DNA of 64,000 nucleotides from Planctomyces sp. SH-PL62 (GCA_945893045.1 CAMDEA010000002.1:1-64000), one strand, 5' to 3'. Numbered from the stretch's first letter, positions 11,770-63,649 are shown. Notes: generated by a model not told the origin, from the sequence alone. A program made the numbers and translations.

Positions 11770-11863
11770 GGGTCGTGCGTTCAAAATTCAAAATTGGCGG
11801 ACAACACCCAAGGAAGGCACGGGCAACTTCACCCGCCAATTTTGAATTTTGAACGCACGACCC
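11770..11863. repeat. Palindromic element, family F6 variant (GGGTCG outer ends)
   Basis: Arms GGGTCGTGCGTTCAAAATTC... and its reverse complement pair over about 30 bp and enclose about 35 nt. It fills the gap between the TolC-like gene's 3' end and the MBL-fold gene's start. The outer GGGTCG/CGACCC ends are shared with the elements at 44003, 47663 and 63547, although the cores differ. Confidence 0.85.
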
Positions 11864-22026: not shown

Positions 22027-22065
22027 CCATTCCTCTGCCAACCAAACTGAATGGCAGAGGAATGG
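22027..22065. repeat. Hairpin element, family F7 (short)
   Basis: 14-bp arms CCATTCCTCTGCCA / TGGCAGAGGAATGG with an 11-nt loop, lying between the two adaptor genes. The arm text resembles the F7 copies at 17277 and 50100. Confidence 0.8.
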
Positions 22066-22079
22066 GAGCAAAGGAATGC

Positions 22080-42821: not shown

Positions 42822-42897
42822 TGAGCGGCACGGCGCTAGCCGCCGGTGAATCGCACGGTTCACCCATCCTCACCGGCGGCTAGCGCCGTGCCGCTCA
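42822..42897. repeat. REP element pair, family F3 (cognate to the RAYT at 55132)
   Basis: 76 nt with perfect 27-bp outer arms starting TGAGCGGCACGGCGCTAGCC. It is identical in arms and length to the element at 55606. The inner TCA on its right half is the stop codon of the CFA-type gene. Confidence 0.93.
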
Positions 42898-43985
42898 AGC
42901 AGCGCATGTGTGACGAACCATTCCTCGCCGTTGGCGTAGCCGAACAACTCGGCGACGGCGAGGAAGAACATTCGCCAGCGATGGAACCAGCGACGAGCCT
43001 CCGCGCGGCCGTAGCACGATTCGAGAATCGGCATGACCTCGCGGTGCCGCGCGTCGAGATTCTTGAGCCACGCTTCCGAGGTGCGTTGATAGTGCTGGCC
43101 GTTCCAGCGCCATTGCTGCGTGACCTTCAAGTGTTGGTCGAATCGCCGCAGCAGATGCTCGCTGGGCATGATGCCGCCGGTGAAGAAATAGCGGCCCATC
43201 CAATTCGCGTCTCCGTCCGTCTCGAACGGATACGCGAAGCGACGATGACAGAAGATGTGGATGAAGAGCTTGCCATCCGGCCGCAGCCAGCCGGAGATCC
43301 GTTCCAGCAGCTTCGCGTAATTCCGCATGTGCTCGAACATTTCGACAGAGATGACGCGATCGAAGTGGGGCAGGTTTTCAATCTGCCCGGCCGCGTTTCG
43401 TGTTGGCTGGCCGGGCAGGTTGGAAACCTGCCCCACGTCGAAGTCATTCATGTCCGCCGTGATGATCCGCAGATTCGTCAACCCGCGAGTAGCCGCCTCC
43501 GCCTCGATGAATCGCCGTTGCGGCGCGGAGTTCGATACGGCGGTGACGCGGCTGCGCGGATATCGCTCGGCCATCCACAGCGACAGCGAACCCCAGCCGC
43601 AGCCGAGTTCCAAGATGTCTTGGCCGTCGGCCAGTTGTGCCCGCTCGCAGGTGATCGCCAGCGCGGAATCCTCGGCGTCGGCCAGCAAAGAGGACTCATC
43701 CGGGAAGAAGCAACTGCTGTATTTTCGGCGCGGCCCCAAGACGGCCGCGAAGAACTCTGGCGGCAACTCGTAGTGCTGTTCGTTGGCTTTGTCCGGGACG
43801 GGAGCGACCGGCCCGGCGACCATCGACGCGACGAACGCTTGCAGCGCCCGTTCGTTGGCGATGTCGTTGCCGCGATCCGAGTCTCGCAAGCGTTGCTCGC
43901 ACAGTCGTCGAATGGCGGAGCGTGTGAAACCGTCAGGGATCAGACCGCGCTCGACAGCGTCGAGGCTCAGGGACAACAGGCTCAT
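42870..43985 (-). CDS. CFA-type SAM-dependent methyltransferase, copy 1
   Basis: 371 residues. ILELGCGWGSLSLWMAERYP is the SAM-binding motif, FDRVISVEMFEHMRNYAKLLERI is typical of cyclopropane-fatty-acid synthases, and PSEHLLRRF is also conserved. It would methylate unsaturated acyl chains of phospholipids. A translated palindrome (residues about 184-207, VGQVSNLPG...ENLPH) interrupts the loop between ITADMNDF and FDRVISVEM. The C terminus (HGASRR) and stop are supplied by an F3 REP element. It is last in the fatty-acid modification cluster. Confidence 0.9.
   Translation of the reverse strand: MSLLSLSLDAVERGLIPDGFTRSAIRRLCEQRLRDSDRGNDIANERALQAFVASMVAGPVAPVPDKANEQHYELPPEFFAAVLGPRRKYSSCFFPDESSLLADAEDSALAITCERAQLADGQDILELGCGWGSLSLWMAERYPRSRVTAVSNSAPQRRFIEAEAATRGLTNLRIITADMNDFDVGQVSNLPGQPTRNAAGQIENLPHFDRVISVEMFEHMRNYAKLLERISGWLRPDGKLFIHIFCHRRFAYPFETDGDANWMGRYFFTGGIMPSEHLLRRFDQHLKVTQQWRWNGQHYQRTSEAWLKNLDARHREVMPILESCYGRAEARRWFHRWRMFFLAVAELFGYANGEEWFVTHALLERHGASRR
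43365..43436. repeat. Palindromic element, family F5, translated in frame (72 nt)
   Basis: GTGG head with the hairpin GGCAGGTTTTCAATCTGCC, then a right half GGCAGGTTGGAAACCTGCC and CCAC. The length is exactly 24 codons. It is read on the minus strand as VGQVSNLPG...GQIENLPH. Confidence 0.92.
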
Positions 43986-44002
43986 GCGGGGGCTTTCGCT
44001 GA

Positions 44003-44096
44003 GGGGTCGGGTGTGCGAATTTCAGATTTCGCCGTCATCGGTTTGGGAAGTGGGAAATCGTTGGCGGCGAAATCTGAAATTCGCACACCCGACCCC
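44003..44096. repeat. Palindromic element, family F6
   Basis: Perfect 32-bp arms starting GGGGTCGGGTGTGCGAATTT around a 30-nt centre, between the two CFA-type genes. Compare the copy at 47663, which has compensated changes in both arms. Confidence 0.93.
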
Positions 44097-44099
44097 GCG

Positions 44100-45386
44100 T
44101 TATCTGGCGGCTTGCTGGCCGATCGTGATCGGATCGCGGCGGCAGAGCGGTTTGTCAAATTGAATCTGCACGACGCCGGTGTACCGCTCGTCGAACGCCG
44201 CTTCGCAGTAGCAGAGGTAGTAATCCCACAGCCGGATGAAGCGGTCGGGATAGCCGAGCGCTCGCACTTCGTCGAGCTTGGCATGGAAGCCGCGTCGCCA
44301 ATGGCGGAGCGTCTCGGCGTAATGCGTACCGAAGTCCTCGGCGTGAACGAATCGCAGATTGGTCGCGCGGGTGATCGACTCGAAGATCGCGCCCATCGAC
44401 GGCACGCAGCCGCCGGGGAAGACGTAACGCTGGATGAAATCGACCGACTTCAAATACTGAGCGAAACGCTGGTCCGGCATCAGAATCCCTTGCAGCACGA
44501 ACGAGCCTTCCGGCTTGAGCAGTTCGCTGCACTTGCCGAAGTAGGTGTCGAAGTAGCGATACCCGACCGCCTCGATCATCTCGATCGAGACCAGTTTGTC
44601 GAACTGGCCGGTGAGGTCTCGATAGTCTTGCAGCAGGAGCGTCACGCGATCGGACAGCCCCGCGTCGGCGATGCGTTGCCGCGCGACATCGAACTGCTGT
44701 TGCGAGATGGTCGTGGTGGTGACTCGGCAGCCGTAGTTTCGGGCCGCGTGCAGAGCCAGCCCGCCCCAGCCGGTGCCGATCTCCAGGAGATGATCGCTCG
44801 GCTTGAGGTCGAGCTTGCGGCAGGCGCGGTCGATCTTCTCGACCGAGGCGTCATGCAGCGTGCTGGTCGGCGTCAGAAAGATGCCGCTGGAGTACGCGAG
44901 CGTCTCATCCAGCCACAGCCGGAAGAAATCATTGCCCAGGTCGTAATGCGCGTGAATGTTTCGCCGACTCCCCTCGCGGCTGTTGGCGTGCCACCAGTGA
45001 TACAGCCGATTGACCACGGCAAAGGCTCGCGACAGTCCGCGATCCATCCGGTCGGTCAGAGCGATGTTTCGCAAGAAAATCCGAAACAGCGCGGTCAGGT
45101 CGTCGCAGTCCCAGTCGCCGCGCAAATACGACTCGGCGATCGAGAGGCTGCCTCCCAGGACCGCGTGACGGAAGAAACTCCCGGCTCGAATGGTCAGCGT
45201 CGCCTGCAAATCGGCGTGGTCTCCGAGCGTGGTCTCGCCGCTGGCATCGCTGAGCGTCAGTTGTCCGCCGCGCAGGCCCTGGAGTTGGTTGGTCAGCACT
45301 CGCCGGGCGAGGCCATTCACGAGACCGAACGACGAGGGAGACGATCGCTCGGCAGCGAGGGTGACACTCATCAGCGGGGACTCCAT
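44100..45386 (-). CDS. Cyclopropane-fatty-acyl-phospholipid synthase-like, copy 2
   Basis: 428 residues. An N-terminal lipid-binding-like part precedes NIHAHYDLGNDFFRLWLDETLAYSSGIF, LLEIGTGWGGLALHAARNYG, VSIEMIEAVGYRYFDTYF and IQRYVFPGGCVPS. These are all standard for the full-length Cfa family, which adds a methylene or methyl group from SAM to cis double bonds of membrane lipids. The ATG at 45371 has GGAG 9 nt upstream and may be the real start. It begins 8 nt past the DUF1365 stop. Confidence 0.94.
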   Translation of the reverse strand: MESPLMSVTLAAERSSPSSFGLVNGLARRVLTNQLQGLRGGQLTLSDASGETTLGDHADLQATLTIRAGSFFRHAVLGGSLSIAESYLRGDWDCDDLTALFRIFLRNIALTDRMDRGLSRAFAVVNRLYHWWHANSREGSRRNIHAHYDLGNDFFRLWLDETLAYSSGIFLTPTSTLHDASVEKIDRACRKLDLKPSDHLLEIGTGWGGLALHAARNYGCRVTTTTISQQQFDVARQRIADAGLSDRVTLLLQDYRDLTGQFDKLVSIEMIEAVGYRYFDTYFGKCSELLKPEGSFVLQGILMPDQRFAQYLKSVDFIQRYVFPGGCVPSMGAIFESITRATNLRFVHAEDFGTHYAETLRHWRRGFHAKLDEVRALGYPDRFIRLWDYYLCYCEAAFDERYTGVVQIQFDKPLCRRDPITIGQQAAR

Positions 45387-45394
45387 TCTTCAAA

Positions 45395-46165
45395 TTAGGC
45401 GGTCGTTTTTGGATGCGGCACGAACGCGACCCCTTTTCGCCAGAGCCGCAGAGCCTGCCAGTAAATTCCGGCGAATACTTGAACGGTCAGCAGCGGATAT
45501 CGCAACAGTACGCGGACTCGCTGCCAGCCGGTCAACGGGATTCGACGAACGGCCAGCGTCGCGTCGAACAGTTTTCCGTCGGCGATGTGATTCTCGATGT
45601 GAATCGCCAGCCGCTCGCCCGGTTCGCTCAATTGCCAGCGATAGGTCATGTCCATCGCCATGAACGGCGAGACGTGAAACACCTTTTCCGTGGAGCACGT
45701 TTTCAACGTGCTCGGGTCCGGGCACGTTGGAAACGTGCCCCACGAGGTGAGCACATAGCAATGCTGCTCGTTCCACGGCGTATTGTTGACCTCGGCCACG
45801 ACGGTCTCGACTCGCTGGCCGCTCTCGTCGAAGAGGTAATAGACACAGATCGGATTCATCTCGAAGCCGAAGTATCGAAAGCTGGTCAGCAGTCGAATCG
45901 GCCCGCTCGGTCGCCGGCCGGTGCGCTGCTCGACCAAGTCACGCACCGCGGTATCGAGCGGCACGGTCGGATCGCCGAGATGATCGGCTCGGCGAAATCG
46001 TGCGACGGCGGGCCAGCGGGTGGACCACAACCCGCGACGGCCGAAGAGCGTGTCCAGCTCGGCCAGATCGACATAGACCAGGAACAGCCGATAGCGAAAG
46101 GTGTGCTCGACCGGAGTCATTCTCCGGTGATCGACGATTCCTTCGTAAAAGCAGGAGTGGGTCAT
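45395..46165 (-). CDS. DUF1365 family protein
   Basis: 256 residues. [55 protein letters not shown] and [18 protein letters not shown] are DUF1365 hallmarks. The family is almost always encoded between an FAD-dependent oxidoreductase and a CFA-type methyltransferase, as here, and is thought to take part in modifying unsaturated fatty acids; its reaction is not established. A translated F5 palindrome ([19 protein letters not shown], residues about 141-158) fills the loop before KVFHVSPF. The ATG at 46165 matches the family start. Confidence 0.92.
45690..45743. repeat. Palindromic element, family F5, translated in frame (54 nt)
   Basis: GTGG head, hairpin AGCACGTTTTCAACGTGCT, short loop, then GGCACGTTGGAAACGTGCC and CCAC. 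The length is exactly 18 codons. It shares its architecture with the element at 57627. Confidence 0.9.
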
Positions 46166-46182
46166 GGCAGGACTTGTCTTCC

Positions 46183-46284
46183 CGCCACCGGGCTTGCCCC
46201 GGTGGTTCCCGCGCTTCTGCACTACGGGGCAGATACATGCCGTAGTGCAAAAGCGCGGGAACCACCCCCGCAAGGGGGGTGGCG
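46183..46284. repeat. Large nested palindrome
   Basis: About 45-bp arms (CGCCACCGGGCTTGCCCCGG... and reverse complement) containing a smaller GGGGCAAGCCC-type hairpin in each half. The centre holds CACTACGG and CCGTAGTG. It fills the gap upstream of the DUF1365 gene. Confidence 0.85.
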
Positions 46285-46294
46285 TTGGTTCTTT

Positions 46295-47641
46295 CTATTG
46301 GCCGGACAGGGCTTCGCACACGGCCAGCGCGCTGTTCACGCCGTCTTCGTGGAAGCCGTTGCCCCAATACGCTCCACAAAACGACGTGCGGTTGACGTTC
46401 AGCACTTCGCGATGCCGAGCCTGCATGGCCGCTCGGCGAGTCGTGAAGATCGGATGATGGTACTCGAACCGGCCGAGAATTTTCGTGGGATCAATTCGGT
46501 CGTCGCTGTTGAGCGTCACGCAGAACGTGTGCTGCGAACGAATGTGCTGGAGGATGTTCATGCAATAGCTGACGGTGGCATGAGCGGTCGGCTCGGCGGG
46601 GATCTGATAATTCCAACTGGCCCACGCCAGCCGTCGTCGCGGCAGCAGTGATTCGTCGGTGTGCAGGACGGCGTTGTTCCGTTCATACGGGAATGCTCCG
46701 AGCAGTTCCCGTTCGATCGGCGTCGGATCGGCGAGCATTCGCAGTGCTTGATCGCTGTGACACGCGAAGACGACGTGATCGAATCGTTCTGCCGGCTGAC
46801 CACGCAGAGCATTCTGTAGCCCAGGCCCTTGTGGCCTGGTGGATTCCTCAAAGGCCGAGGGATCAACCGACCCACGAGGGGTCGGGCTACGCAGGATTGC
46901 CCCCGGCGTTACGTCGACGCCGTCTGCCTCGCGTCGCACGGAAACGATTGGCGTGTTGAGGCGGATTCGGTCGCGGAATCGTGGAGTCATCGCGGCAACA
47001 TACGTTCGCGAGCCGCCTTCGATGACGCGCCATGTCGGCCGATGCCGCACGCTCAGCAAGCCGTGATTGCGATAGAACTCGACGATGAAACGGATCGGGA
47101 ATTCGGCGAATGTCCCGGTCGGGCAGGACCAGATCGCGGCTCCCATCGGCAGCAGATATTGATCGGCGAACTCGCGTGAGTAGCGGTGTTTCGCGAGGAA
47201 CTCGCCAACCGTCATCGCGTCGTCGGCCGGGCGGCTGAGGACCAATTCCGGTCCCTCGCGGTTGAATCGCAGGATGTCGCGGATCATCCGATGAAAGCTC
47301 GGCCGAAACAGATTCCGCCGCTGAGCGAACAGGCCATTGAGCGACGAGCCGTTGTATTCGAGACCGGTGCGGTCGCACCGCACGCTGAAGCTCATCGAAG
47401 TTGCCTGCGAAGCGATTCGCAGTTCGTCCAACAGCGCGATGAAATTCGGATACGTCCAGTCGTTGAAGACGATGAAGCCGGTGTCGATGACATGCCGCTC
47501 GCCGCCGAGTTCCACATCGACGGTGTGCGTGTGCCCGCCGAGATAATCGTTGGCTTCAAAGAGCGTGATCTCGTGCTGTTGGCTCAGCCGATAGGCGGCG
47601 GTCAGTCCGGAGATCCCGGCTCCAATGATGGCGATTCGCAT
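46295..47641 (-). CDS. FAD-dependent amine-oxidase-like oxidoreductase
   Basis: 448 residues. MRIAIIGAGISGLTAAYRLS (FAD-binding GxGxxG) and LFEANDYLGGHTHTVDVE with VIDTGFIVFNDWTYPN are typical of the flavin oxidoreductase that travels with DUF1365 and Cfa. LYxPMGAAIWS-type text (YLLPMGAAIWSCP) and GNGFHEDGVNSALA follow. It is thought to act on the acyl chain (desaturation or related oxidation). A 75-nt palindrome (25 codons, residues about 251-275) is translated as RSPTPRGSVDPSAFEE and following residues. The ATG at 47641 starts directly at the Rossmann strand. Confidence 0.92.
   Translation of the reverse strand: MRIAIIGAGISGLTAAYRLSQQHEITLFEANDYLGGHTHTVDVELGGERHVIDTGFIVFNDWTYPNFIALLDELRIASQATSMSFSVRCDRTGLEYNGSSLNGLFAQRRNLFRPSFHRMIRDILRFNREGPELVLSRPADDAMTVGEFLAKHRYSREFADQYLLPMGAAIWSCPTGTFAEFPIRFIVEFYRNHGLLSVRHRPTWRVIEGGSRTYVAAMTPRFRDRIRLNTPIVSVRREADGVDVTPGAILRSPTPRGSVDPSAFEESTRPQGPGLQNALRGQPAERFDHVVFACHSDQALRMLADPTPIERELLGAFPYERNNAVLHTDESLLPRRRLAWASWNYQIPAEPTAHATVSYCMNILQHIRSQHTFCVTLNSDDRIDPTKILGRFEYHHPIFTTRRAAMQARHREVLNVNRTSFCGAYWGNGFHEDGVNSALAVCEALSGQ
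46816..46890. repeat. Palindromic element with GTAGCCC ends, translated in frame (75 nt)
   Basis: GTAG head, CCAGGCC / GGCCTGG hairpin, spacer, then CCGACCC / GGGTCGG-type hairpin (on the complement) and CTAC. The two hairpin cores differ from each other, but the heads are shared. The length is exactly 25 codons. Confidence 0.8.
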
Positions 47642-47662
47642 GGCGGCGGAGTCTAGCGACGA

Positions 47663-47757
47663 GGGGTCGGGTGTGCGATTTTCAGAATTCGCCGTCAACG
47701 ATTGGGGAAGAGGTGTCGTCGCTCGCGGCGAATTCTGAAAATCGCACACCCGACCCC
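47663..47757. repeat. Palindromic element, family F6 (second copy)
   Basis: Perfect arms starting GGGGTCGGGTGTGCGATTTT, with about 30 nt in the centre. It differs from the 44003 copy at two arm positions, both matched by complementary changes in the other arm. It lies in the divergent gap between the FAD gene and the CPBP gene. Confidence 0.93.
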
Positions 47758-47778
47758 GGACCAACTACACTCTGACGC

Positions 47779-48546
47779 ATGAAACGGAATTCAAAATCGG
47801 ACTATTGGCAGCAATCGCGACTGCCGTGGCCGTCGCTGGTCTTCTTGATGCCGATGCTGGTGGCCTACGAAGTCGGCGTGCTGTGGGTCGGCGGACCAAA
47901 CGCGAAAGCGATTCGCAGTGGCGCGGATCTCTGGCTGCGCGGCGGTCTCGACGCCATCGGTTTGGGAGTCGGCTGGTTGCCGCCGTTGCTGGTCGTGTTG
48001 GGTTTGCTGGTGTGGCAGTGGATCGAGCGGCATCCGTGGCGTGTCTCTTGGGAAACTCTGGCCGGGATGTTTGCGGAAAGCGTGATCTTCGCGTTCATTC
48101 TCTTGCTGATCGGGCAATTGCAGAGCCGAGTCTTTCCGTGGTCGATGACTCACACTCACGATGTGATCGGCGTCGCGCGATTGACCGCCGCGATGTCGCC
48201 CGTCGCTGTCGAAACGCTCGCGCGAGCGTTGGGGTTTGTGGGGGCCGGGATCTACGAGGAAGTCTTATTCCGACTGGCCTTGTTGCCTCCGACGATGGCG
48301 TTGCTGAGGCAGCCGGCGTTCTTGAAACGCTGGGCCACGCCGCTGGCGGTGCTCATCACGAGTTTGCTGTTCGCGGCCGCTCATCACGCCGGCCCGGCGG
48401 GCGAGCCGTTCGATCTGTTCCGCTTTTGTTTCCGCACGCTGGCCGGCGGCATCTTCGCGGCTCTGTTCGTGCAACGCGGCTTCGGCATCACGGTCGCCAG
48501 TCACGCGCTGTACGACTTGCTGGTTGGCGTGCTGCTGGTGGAGTGA
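47779..48546 (+). CDS. CPBP-family intramembrane metalloprotease
   Basis: 255 residues with several membrane helices (WPSLVFLMPMLVAYEVGVLW; LPPLLVVLGLLVWQWI; AESVIFAFILLLIGQL). The motifs GIYEEVLFRLALLP (EExxxR), LLFAAAHH and ASHALYDLLVG are the Abi/CPBP active-site set, related to Rce1 prenyl-protein proteases. All catalytic residues are present. The substrate is unknown and no bacteriocin locus is adjacent. Confidence 0.92.
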   Translation: MKRNSKSDYWQQSRLPWPSLVFLMPMLVAYEVGVLWVGGPNAKAIRSGADLWLRGGLDAIGLGVGWLPPLLVVLGLLVWQWIERHPWRVSWETLAGMFAESVIFAFILLLIGQLQSRVFPWSMTHTHDVIGVARLTAAMSPVAVETLARALGFVGAGIYEEVLFRLALLPPTMALLRQPAFLKRWATPLAVLITSLLFAAAHHAGPAGEPFDLFRFCFRTLAGGIFAALFVQRGFGITVASHALYDLLVGVLLVE

Positions 48547-49979: not shown

Positions 49980-50300
49980 GGAAGTCGCAGCCTCACTCCA
50001 TCATTGGAACAGGCACCAGATTAACGGTCGTTCGGAGACATGGGTAACAAGCGGACGCGGGCAACATTGGGTGAGCGTGCCAACCGCGTTTTCCAATTTC
50101 ATTCCTCTGGCCCCATTCGTCTGCCCAAAACACCTTGCCAGACGAATGGGGCCAGAGGAATGAACCACAGGCCGATCCGCGGCGGCAGGTTGGCGATGAA
50201 GTCTCGCGCCGCGTACCATGCCACGCCGTGTTTTGCACGCTGGTTCTGAACATACGACCGACCGGTTGGCCGGTCTGATTTTTTCCTGGGAGGACATCTA
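49980..50300. other. Divergent intergenic region between pth and the PVC dehydrogenase gene
   Basis: 320 nt. No gene is seen. It holds one F7 hairpin element (50100-50162) and the Shine-Dalgarno GGGAGG of the downstream gene. Promoters for both divergent genes should lie here but I cannot call them. Confidence 0.5.
50100..50162. repeat. Hairpin element, family F7
   Basis: Arms of about 24 bp starting CATTCCTCTGGCCCCATTCG, with about 11 nt of unpaired centre. It has the same two-unit arm layout as the 17277 copy, with arm changes compensated on both sides. Confidence 0.88.
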
Positions 50301-54137: not shown

Positions 54138-55031
54138 CGATCGTTTCTCCAAATGGCATCCGCGATCGTGCTGTCTCCGTCGCTCGCAATGGCCGACGAA
54201 AAGCGTTCGCCGATCGTGGACACTCACGTCCATTGCTTCGCGGGCACAGCCGACAAACGGTTCCCGTATCACAAAGACGGCGCGTATCAGCCGGAGAAGG
54301 CTTCGACGCCCGAAGACTTGCTGGACTGCATGAAGCAAGCCGGCGTGGACTTCACCGTCATCGTGCATCCGGAGCCGTATCAGGATGACCATCGGTATCT
54401 CGAACACTGCCTGGAAGTCGGCAAAGGAAAACTCAAAGGCACCTGCCTGTTCTTCGCCGGCCGACCGAACAGCATTCGGGACATGACCGCGCTGGTGAAA
54501 CGACAACCGGGCAAGATCGTCACGCTGCGAATTCACGCCTACGCACCGGATCGTCTGCCGCCGTTCGGCAAGCCGGAACTGCGCGAACTCTGGAAAGCAG
54601 CCAGCGATCTGGGCCTCGCGATTCAACTGCATTTCGAACCGCGACACGCTCCCGGCTTTGAACCGCTCATCCAAGAGTTCTCCAAGACGCGCGTCATCAT
54701 CGACCACCTCGGCCGCCCGTTGCAGGGGACTCCGGAAGAGCACGATCGAGTCGTGAAGTGGTCGCGGTTCGAGAACACGGTGATGAAGCTTTCGTCGATC
54801 CCGCTTACGCGAACGTATCCGCATCGCGACGTCGAGCCGATCATCCACATGCTCGTCAAAGCCTTCGGCCCCGACCGCCTGATCTACGGCGGCGGCTGGG
54901 GCGAAGGCTCGACCGGCGAGTCGTATCGCGCCAGTGTCGAACGAGTCCGCTCGTTCGTGTCCGACTTGCCAGCCAGTGATCAAGCGAAAGTGCTCGGCGG
55001 AACGGCGGCGAAGTTGTTTCGATTCTCCTGA
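54060..55031 (+). CDS. Amidohydrolase-2 family protein, exported
   Basis: 323 residues. SPIVDTHVHCFAG is the HxH metal motif. Further conserved segments are LRIHAYAPD, IDHLGRP and the late RLIYGGGWGEGS, where many relatives have GSDxP; here Asp is replaced and an active-site residue may be missing. The signal segment FPRRSFLQMASAIVLSPSLAMA is of twin-arginine type, but the first 25 or so residues (KTKNTERSDLLRHFSPNNF) come from a palindrome. It lies 42 nt after the PVC dehydrogenase, probably co-transcribed. Its TGA stop is the first three bases of an F3 REP element. Confidence 0.83.
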   Translation: MKTKNTERSDLLRHFSPNNFSPSFPRRSFLQMASAIVLSPSLAMADEKRSPIVDTHVHCFAGTADKRFPYHKDGAYQPEKASTPEDLLDCMKQAGVDFTVIVHPEPYQDDHRYLEHCLEVGKGKLKGTCLFFAGRPNSIRDMTALVKRQPGKIVTLRIHAYAPDRLPPFGKPELRELWKAASDLGLAIQLHFEPRHAPGFEPLIQEFSKTRVIIDHLGRPLQGTPEEHDRVVKWSRFENTVMKLSSIPLTRTYPHRDVEPIIHMLVKAFGPDRLIYGGGWGEGSTGESYRASVERVRSFVSDLPASDQAKVLGGTAAKLFRFS

Positions 55032-55106
55032 GCGACAGGGCGCTAGCCCTCGGTAAAGCGTGGCGTTAATGATCGTTTTCACCGGCGGCTAGCGCCGTGC
55101 CGCTCA
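55029..55106. repeat. REP element pair, family F3, left flank of the RAYT gene
   Basis: 78 nt. The right half CACCGGCGGCTAGCGCCGTG is identical to the other copies; the left half (GAGCGACAGGGCGCTAGCCC) carries a few changes. It ends 25 nt before the RAYT start codon, and its first TGA is the stop of the amidohydrolase. Confidence 0.9.
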
Positions 55107-55131
55107 GTGCGTCTTTGCAAGGGCCAGTCGG

Positions 55132-55608
55132 ATGCACGATCGCATCACCTACTTCATCACTTGGACCACTTACGGAACTTGGTTGCCAGGTGATGCTCGT
55201 GGGTGGCGAAAGTCCGATAAAGGCAATCAGCCTCCGCAACCACGGCTTGAAGCATGGTGCCGCAGTCGCCTCTCGGAAAAGCCGGTGCTGTTGTCGGAGA
55301 GCCAAAGGTTGAAGGTCGAAGACGTTTGTCGAAAGCATGCTCAAATTCGGGGCTGGATGCTGCATGCGGTGAGTGCTCGATCGAATCATGTGCATTTGGC
55401 GGTGACCGCTGACAAAGCACCTGAGTTAGTCCGAGATCAATTCAAAGCCAACGCGACGCGAGTTCTGCGCCAGGCCCCGGAAGCCATCACGAATGACAAA
55501 GTGTGGACCCGCGGTGGGGACTGCGAGGTCGTCGAAGGCGAGGCCAATCTGGCCCGCGTTGTCGAATACATCCTCGAAGCGCAGGATCGCAAGGAGCGAG
55601 ACCACTGA
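55132..55608 (+). mobile_element. REP-associated tyrosine transposase (RAYT, Y1/HUH family)
   Basis: 158 residues encoded by one ORF. RITYFITWTTYGTWLPGDARGW is a typical Y1-transposase start. The HUH metal motif is SNHVHLAV (His 86, His 88), and the catalytic Tyr is probably Tyr 146 in VVEYILEAQ. Such enzymes cut and rejoin single-stranded REP sequences and usually sit, in single copy, between their own REPs. Here F3 palindromes flank the gene at 55029 and 55606, and its TGA stop is the first three bases of the right copy. The motifs appear intact, so it may be active. AAGGG precedes the ATG. Confidence 0.9.
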
Positions 55609-55681
55609 GCGGCACGGCGCTAGCCGCCGGTGAGAGCGTTTGTTTATCCGCTCTCCCCGGCGGCTAGCGCCGTGCCGCTCA
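55606..55681. repeat. REP element pair, family F3, right flank of the RAYT gene
   Basis: 76 nt with perfect 24-bp arms (GAGCGGCACGGCGCTAGCCG and reverse complement). The left TGA ends the RAYT gene and the right TCA (TGA on the minus strand) ends the carbamoyltransferase gene, so one element supplies two convergent stop codons. Confidence 0.95.
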
Positions 55682-57616: not shown

Positions 57617-57626
57617 GGAGTTGTTC

Positions 57627-57684
57627 GTGGGGCACGTTTTCAACGTGCCGAGGATGGGACGGGCACGTTGAAAACGTGCCCCAC
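57627..57684. repeat. Palindromic element, family F5 (intergenic copy)
   Basis: GTGG head, hairpin GGCACGTTTTCAACGTGCC, 13-nt spacer, then GGCACGTTGAAAACGTGCC and CCAC. It lies 11 nt upstream of the carbamoyltransferase start, so it will be in its leader or promoter. Confidence 0.93.
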
Positions 57685-57802
57685 GAATGGAGGCGTACTC
57701 TAGCGAGTGACTCGACCGCTCACAGCCTGTGCGATCAGGCGACGCGTTCCTAAGATTCGCCCCTCGTTCGAGCCATTCCCATCTGTTTGAAGAGGGTGAA
57801 TC

Positions 57803-63546: not shown

Positions 63547-63649
63547 GGGGTCGGGAGTCTTTTTCAGGTCGGGTCGATGGTGATTGAACGTCTGCTGGCG
63601 AGTTGTTTGTCGAAGGCTCAACGCCGACCTGAAAAAGACTCCCGACCCC
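63547..63649. repeat. Palindromic element, family F6-type ends, overlapping a gene start
   Basis: GGGGTCGGGAGTCTTTTTCAGG-type arms of about 26 bp. The ATG at 63577 lies inside, so the right arm would be translated as RRPEKDSRPLA. Confidence 0.9.

Follow-up and report, generated by a model that had tools for sequence, protein, structure and literature searches.

The palindromic repeat F6 occurs at positions 44003 and 47663 of a 64,000-nt stretch of Planctomyces sp. SH-PL62 DNA (GCA_945893045.1 CAMDEA010000002.1:1-64000, one strand; hereafter the window), where the two copies have different arms, each pair perfectly complementary. We consider it likely that F6 elements are non-autonomous mobile DNA hairpins of the REPIN/terminal inverted repeat (TIR) type, with arms that are constrained by pairing and inherited from source elements, plus occasional exchange between arms. 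The halves probably stay matched because the element works only when paired and because they occasionally copy each other.

Left arm 44003-44034, loop 44035-44064, right arm 44065-44096, unstranded: F6 copy 1, consensus arm type AGATTTCGCC
Left arm 47663-47694, loop 47695-47725, right arm 47726-47757, unstranded: F6 copy 2, rare arm type GATTTTCAGAATTCGCC

Direct reading and an inverted-repeat scan both gave perfect 32-bp arms in each copy, enclosing a loop of 30 nt in copy 1 (44003-44096, 94 nt in total) and of 31 nt in copy 2 (47663-47757, 95 nt in total). The left arms read GGGGTCGGGTGTGCGA[A]TTTCAGA[T]TTCGCCG at 44003 and GGGGTCGGGTGTGCGA[T]TTTCAGA[A]TTCGCCG at 47663; arm positions 17 and 25 are the sole left-arm differences and their exact complements are present in the right arms, just as the preliminary description of this DNA had stated. 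Folded as single-stranded DNA, both copies scored far better than dinucleotide shuffles (z = -12.9 for 44003 and -12.1 for 47663).

The genomes compared, largely metagenome assemblies, were the own genome (G000) and its sister genomes G002, G004, G008 and G011. About 27 F6 copies were detected by BLAST in the own genome, 17 of them with exact GTGTGCGA ends, and the only named genomes to show exact F6 ends were three metagenome assemblies of planctomycetes. F6 represents one of the arm types in a GGGGTC superfamily with the pattern GGGGTCGGG(A/T)GT..., whose intact palindromes number at least 104 (101 + 3) in the own genome and 140 in G002; the reversed control pattern gave no matches in these two genomes. 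The F6 repeats are part of a large family of mobile DNA hairpins of about 95 bases in lake planctomycetes.

Arm covariation, which the preliminary description had proposed to check, was assessed in 33 distinct F6 copies from four congeneric genomes, and arm pairing lay above chance. Of 1056 arm cells, 98.58% paired, whereas shuffling the right arms among the 33 copies gave a mean of 93.83% and a maximum of 95.36%; the sister families AGTC (71 copies; 98.70% against 92.15% shuffled) and TTTTTCG (31 copies; 98.53% against 92.19%) behaved alike. Compensated F6 variation comprises eight variant states at five positions in 34 cells, and the shared variants are the compensated ones, whereas the 15 uncompensated mismatches, distributed over 12 of the 33 copies, are each private to one copy. 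By the terms of the same description, frequent uncompensated mismatches in further copies would leave the two window copies as exceptions. Such mismatches do occur, but with perfect arms in 21 of the 33 copies and compensation of the shared variants the two are not exceptional. This partition of shared and private variants suggests that dispersed copies would inherit compensated arm types from source elements. If the element acts as a folded single strand, source lineages could change one arm only together with its partner, and we infer that selection acts via transposition; after insertion each copy would slowly gather one-sided mismatches.

Evolution at orthologous insertions was followed at 21 loci, where 22 comparisons supplied 595 stem pairs, with consensus stems only and one redundant comparison removed. 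There were 19 one-sided arm changes, three compensated pairs and no uncompensated double changes, where coincident double hits would be expected to yield 0.05 compensated pairs (P = 2e-5). Divergence was 2.1% in the arms, 21% in the loops and about 9% in the flanks, the last figure mixing coding and intergenic sequence. A mismatch in one arm is thus tolerated and lasts, and changes that are truly coordinated do occur, though rarely. The ratio of 19 to three indicates that copying from arm to arm is not the everyday rule, and the persistence of mismatches together with the low arm divergence indicates that the arms are mostly conserved and not churned. At the site orthologous to 44003, G011 is empty and G002 has what remains of a decayed F6, interrupted by about 200 nt of inserted sequence. 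Both arms of this remnant, which the insert broke inside, have decayed without compensation, which is predicted by either explanation, selection for pairing or arm copying.

At three of the 21 loci (47663, G000 C6:67870 and G000 C32:19770) the loop is reverse-complemented in place while arms and outer flanks are retained, and all remaining orthologous loop comparisons are in direct orientation. The flanks of 47663 are 94 and 91% identical to those of its G002 orthologue over 300 bp and the 64 arm bases are the same, but the loop aligns only as the reverse complement, with 25 of 31 positions identical (inverted score 41, direct -3). Relative to G004, the inverted loops of C6:67870 and C32:19770 are identical at 27 of 33 and 23 of 32 positions, respectively. 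At all three loci, no other copy compared matches the loop as well as the inverted orthologue does; the lead is clear at 47663 (57 against 40 for the next best) and C32 (32 against 14) and smaller at C6 (45 against 38). Selection for pairing is unable to invert a loop, whereas copying between arms with a switch and a switch-back is able to, and arm copying is therefore real, although recombination between the arms would give the same inversion. Occasional template switching or intra-palindrome recombination between the arms of one copy would thus flip the loop and may pass a change to the other arm; loop flips were observed at the three orthologous sites, and we infer the enzymology of the exchange.

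Template-switch mutation at inverted repeats has been described as recognisable by arm homogenisation together with inversion of the spacer or loop (PMC8604942, 2021; PMC8794818, 2022), and a compensated change combined with a loop inversion has been called the strongest possible support for template switching, and extremely rare (PMC8794818). The hairpins in those cases are short, lie in yeast genes and in RNA genes, and have inverted spacers or loops that are small, typically four bases (PMC8604942; PMC8794818). The inversions described here resemble them in that the loop is reversed in place, but differ in affecting loops of about 31-35 nt in dispersed mobile elements, a length that makes inversion easy to recognise. 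Two other loci deserve mention. The loop of L152:8894 is identical to that of G004 L248 at 29 of 29 positions despite 88% flank identity, whereas every other shared loop differs. L152:4433 (G000 C41:44432) has outside bases C..T against A..G in G004 L220 with the loop direct, and the alignment looks as if the ends of the element, not its loop, had been exchanged.

The preliminary description had offered two causes for the matched arms, homogenisation by copying across a hairpin intermediate or selection as structured RNA or DNA. As the main force, by which a mutation in one arm would soon be copied into the other via a hairpin or cruciform and selection would be unneeded, homogenisation appears unlikely. 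The loop inversions and the in-situ compensated pairs, far above the coincidental expectation, speak for it, as does the finding that 19 of 28 compensated types are transversions while 12 of 19 single changes are transitions (Fisher P = 0.04), an excess which may merely reflect saturation between old subfamilies. Homogenisation as main force predicts compensated changes at about the neutral rate, but one-sided changes predominate at orthologous sites, all 15 private F6 mismatches stand unrepaired, and a neutral process would not cut arm divergence to a tenth of loop divergence. Copying across a hairpin is accordingly retained as an occasional event. The second cause has support for the conserved, paired arms of a mobile DNA hairpin; for RNA it has none, no Rfam match having been found in 43000-48500, and an RNA gene was rejected on that ground. 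The best reading of most compensated variation is that copies inherited it from source elements in which pairing was maintained, with arm exchange adding to it occasionally.

Sister arm types link these elements to transposases. Five of them bracket Y1/RAYT-type genes on both sides (L118, L157, L158, L166/L167 and L172), and because these are Y1 (HUH) transposase genes related to RAYTs, the elements are taken to be mobile REPIN/TIR-type hairpins; F6 would presumably be moved by enzymes of the same kind. In the own genome, one Y1 transposase (L118; C155:609-1559) has GGGGTCAGGTCTTCAAATTTC palindromes on either side. With 78.8 bits it falls slightly short of the 80-bit threshold of the NCBIfam model for REP-associated tyrosine transposases, and it passes the threshold of Pfam Y1_Tnp. 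Its homologues in the sister genomes (L157, L158, L166/L167 and L172) each have a different flanking arm type, which is the TTTTTCGGAATTGGCGG type, abundant in G002, at L158 and the AGTCTTTTT type at L172. The C-terminal part of the C155 enzyme (L118:609-1559, minus strand) resembles a DnaA helix-turn-helix, with NCBIfam and Pfam matches below cut-off.

When flanks were aligned to the four sister genomes, 48 of 71 orthologous-site comparisons showed no element, a remnant or something else in its place, and the rest showed a shared element. The elements thus come and go, and presence, absence and replacement at orthologous sites indicate, as far as aligned sequence can tell, that they are mobile. 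No flanking direct duplication of 3-9 nt was found in 137 copies; lack of target duplication is expected of Y1 transposition (IS200/IS605), and a classical, DDE-type miniature inverted-repeat transposable element was rejected for want of such a duplication. Of 137 superfamily copies, 116 are bordered by A outside one end of the palindrome and by C outside the other, a polarity mark of the element or its target. At G004 L213, the orthologue of G000 L016:1501, only GGGGTCACGACCCC is left, which is the two ends with the whole inside gone and resembles a deletion or excision footprint.

The closest known systems are TIRYT/TIRtron and REPIN elements. In TIRYT/TIRtron, long inverted repeats surround RAYT-like Y1 genes and the same repeat is also dispersed, and some share the motif GGGGWSAS (PMC3733652, 2013). 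The C155 gene with its GGGGTCAG palindromes fits this arrangement exactly, sister arm types likewise flank Y1 genes, and F6 resembles the TIRs in being a dispersed family of long inverted repeats. F6 itself reads GGGGTCGG, one mismatch from GGGGWSAS, a motif common to some but not all published TIRs, whereas the GGGGTCAG of the C155 and L157 types conforms to it; F6 is therefore described as working in the manner of TIRYT TIRs and not classed as a strict member. No transposase gene flanked by F6 was found, either among the 11 Y1 matches in the own assembly, which is 89% complete, or among the C155 homologues from 59 genomes. REPINs, which are moved by RAYTs, have inverted conserved ends and a variable spacer, fold into one hairpin and commonly show compensatory changes (PMC3116915, 2011). 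F6 shares the inverted pair, the spacer, the single hairpin and the compensatory changes, but has neither the unpaired GTAG/GTGG foot tag, its ends being paired GGGGTC, nor a separate tagged REP hairpin at each end, the whole arm pairing with the other arm. The elements are new cases of a known kind, and compensated changes were already known for REPINs (PMC3116915); what is new is the evidence of loops inverted in place and the measured difference between arms that are conserved and loops that drift.

The genes around the two F6 copies bear on a possible role for the host.

42870-43985, minus strand: CMAS-like methyltransferase gene (PF02353), start 17 nt from F6 copy 1
44100-45386, minus strand: cyclopropane-fatty-acyl-phospholipid synthase-like gene (PF02353, 1e-86), stop 3 nt from F6 copy 1
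46295-47642, minus strand: flavin amine oxidase-like gene (PF01593), start about 20 nt from F6 copy 2
47779-48546, plus strand: Rce1-like CAAX protease gene (PF02517), start about 21 nt from F6 copy 2

The mechanical open reading frame of the flavin amine oxidase-like gene runs through F6 copy 2, but the conserved N-terminus MRIAIIGAGISG starts at the ATG at 47642; with starts about 20 and 21 nt away, copy 2 lies between two divergent start codons. A function for the host at each site, such as stabilisation or processing of mRNA or a protein-binding cruciform, with compensation as ordinary structural constraint, is in our judgement improbable. It would account for arms conserved in place 4-5 times better than flanks and 10 times better than loops, and both window copies are within a few bases of genes. 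However, presence is not conserved, most orthologous sites having no element or one of another family, and copy 1 lies between co-directional genes, so that no single RNA role fits both settings. Rfam gave no match, and structural constraint alone leaves the loop inversions unexplained. There is no sign of an RNA role, and the best account of the arms is that they form the DNA hairpin of a mobile element.

Least probable of all, and to be given very little weight, is that the inverted loops stem from assembly artefacts, or from separate insertion events at a shared hot spot in which members of one subfamily entered in opposite orientations: different families do share one intergenic point in different species, the G000 C6:67870 loop is near its subfamily consensus and a short-read assembly graph with k below arm length could falsely flip a loop, but the rare 47663 arm type is common to both species, is seen at no other locus among the copies compared and has flanks aligned on both sides, and at C32:19770 the orthologous inverted loop leads the next best copy by the margin given above. 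Loop orientation relative to the A/C end bases is mixed (35 vs 21), which two-way insertion of a palindrome would also give, and this ratio, unable to separate flipping from two-way insertion, was not used as proof.

Several points weigh against the interpretation of F6 as a pairing-constrained mobile hairpin. Its cognate enzyme is deduced from the sister arm types, in place of a gene flanked by the F6 arm. Conservation of the arms in place is stronger than selection for mobility alone easily explains, which suggests that the arms serve the host or are exchanged between copies. Copies whose outer ends are intact in one genome or more are favoured by ascertainment, and conserved arms with them, and the compared genomes are mostly metagenome assemblies.

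Exchange between copies is suggested by two unlinked G000 copies, C24:37193 and C10:35491, which share a private compensated arm AGTCTGTTTCAGGCCG with G-C at pair 15, a state that none of the other copies among 71 has. Their G004 orthologues have T-A at pair 15 and loops that are still orthologous, and one of the two copies also changed pair 21 in step, making the 25-bp arms identical between both. This shared private arm may represent arm transfer between copies, though it concerns two loci, is unpolarised, and one G004 orthologue is partly decayed. One may tentatively speculate that arms form an exchange network, with copying inside elements (the loop flips) and loop-free passage between unlinked copies. 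If true, the arm would stay uniform and always paired across some 100 loci, with their loops free to drift.

Further palindromes were recognised in the window.

11770-11863, unstranded: related palindrome GGGTCGTGCGTTCAAAATTCAAAATTGGCGG, 31-bp arms, near the TTCAAAATTCAAAATTGGC arm types at C27 and C58
17277-17338, unstranded: F7 copy, 28-bp perfect arms formed by two tandem CATCGTTCTGCC units
22027-22078, unstranded: F7 copy, arms paired over their inner 14 bp only, with a longer orthologue in G002
50098-50164, unstranded: F7 copy, 26-bp perfect arms, G002 orthologue with the same arms
63547-63649, unstranded: sister arm type GGGGTCGGGAGTCTTTTTCAGGTCGG, 26-bp arms, 51-nt loop

F7 copies had been described as differing in text while remaining palindromic, which is true of 17277 and 50098 but only of the inner part of 22027, whose distal arm part (..GAGCAAAGGAATG) is unpaired. 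The 63547 element is common to G002 and G004 at the same site, with the same arms except for one outer mismatch in G002, and a diverged loop. The GTGG-type REP pairs (57624-57687 and 43360-43441) show four-way coordinated changes at orthologous sites, with GCACGTT..AACGTGC in one species and GCAGGTT..AACCTGC in another, both hairpins having changed together; the split is G000, G002 and G004 against G008 at 57624, where 11 of 12 loop positions are conserved, and G000 against G002 and G004 at 43360. A Y1 transposase gene region (55028-55107, 55291-55572 and 55606-55681) is flanked by TGAGCGGCACGGCGCTAGCC palindromes of a different REP family, also found at 42822. At 43360, 60595, 10823 and 47663 the same intergenic point is occupied by different palindrome families across sister species; since flanks align to or near the boundary, these points appear to be insertion hot spots or sites of in-place replacement.

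Compensated changes in long hairpins are usually taken to prove that structure is under selection. The two causes become separable here, where sister species have many copies with loops of 30 nt at orthologous sites, because loop inversions directly report arm exchange while the ratio of one-sided to compensated changes reports selection. Such element families are a natural test bed for this distinction, and they call for caution, in that covariation by itself is no demonstration of a functional RNA in repeats of this sort.

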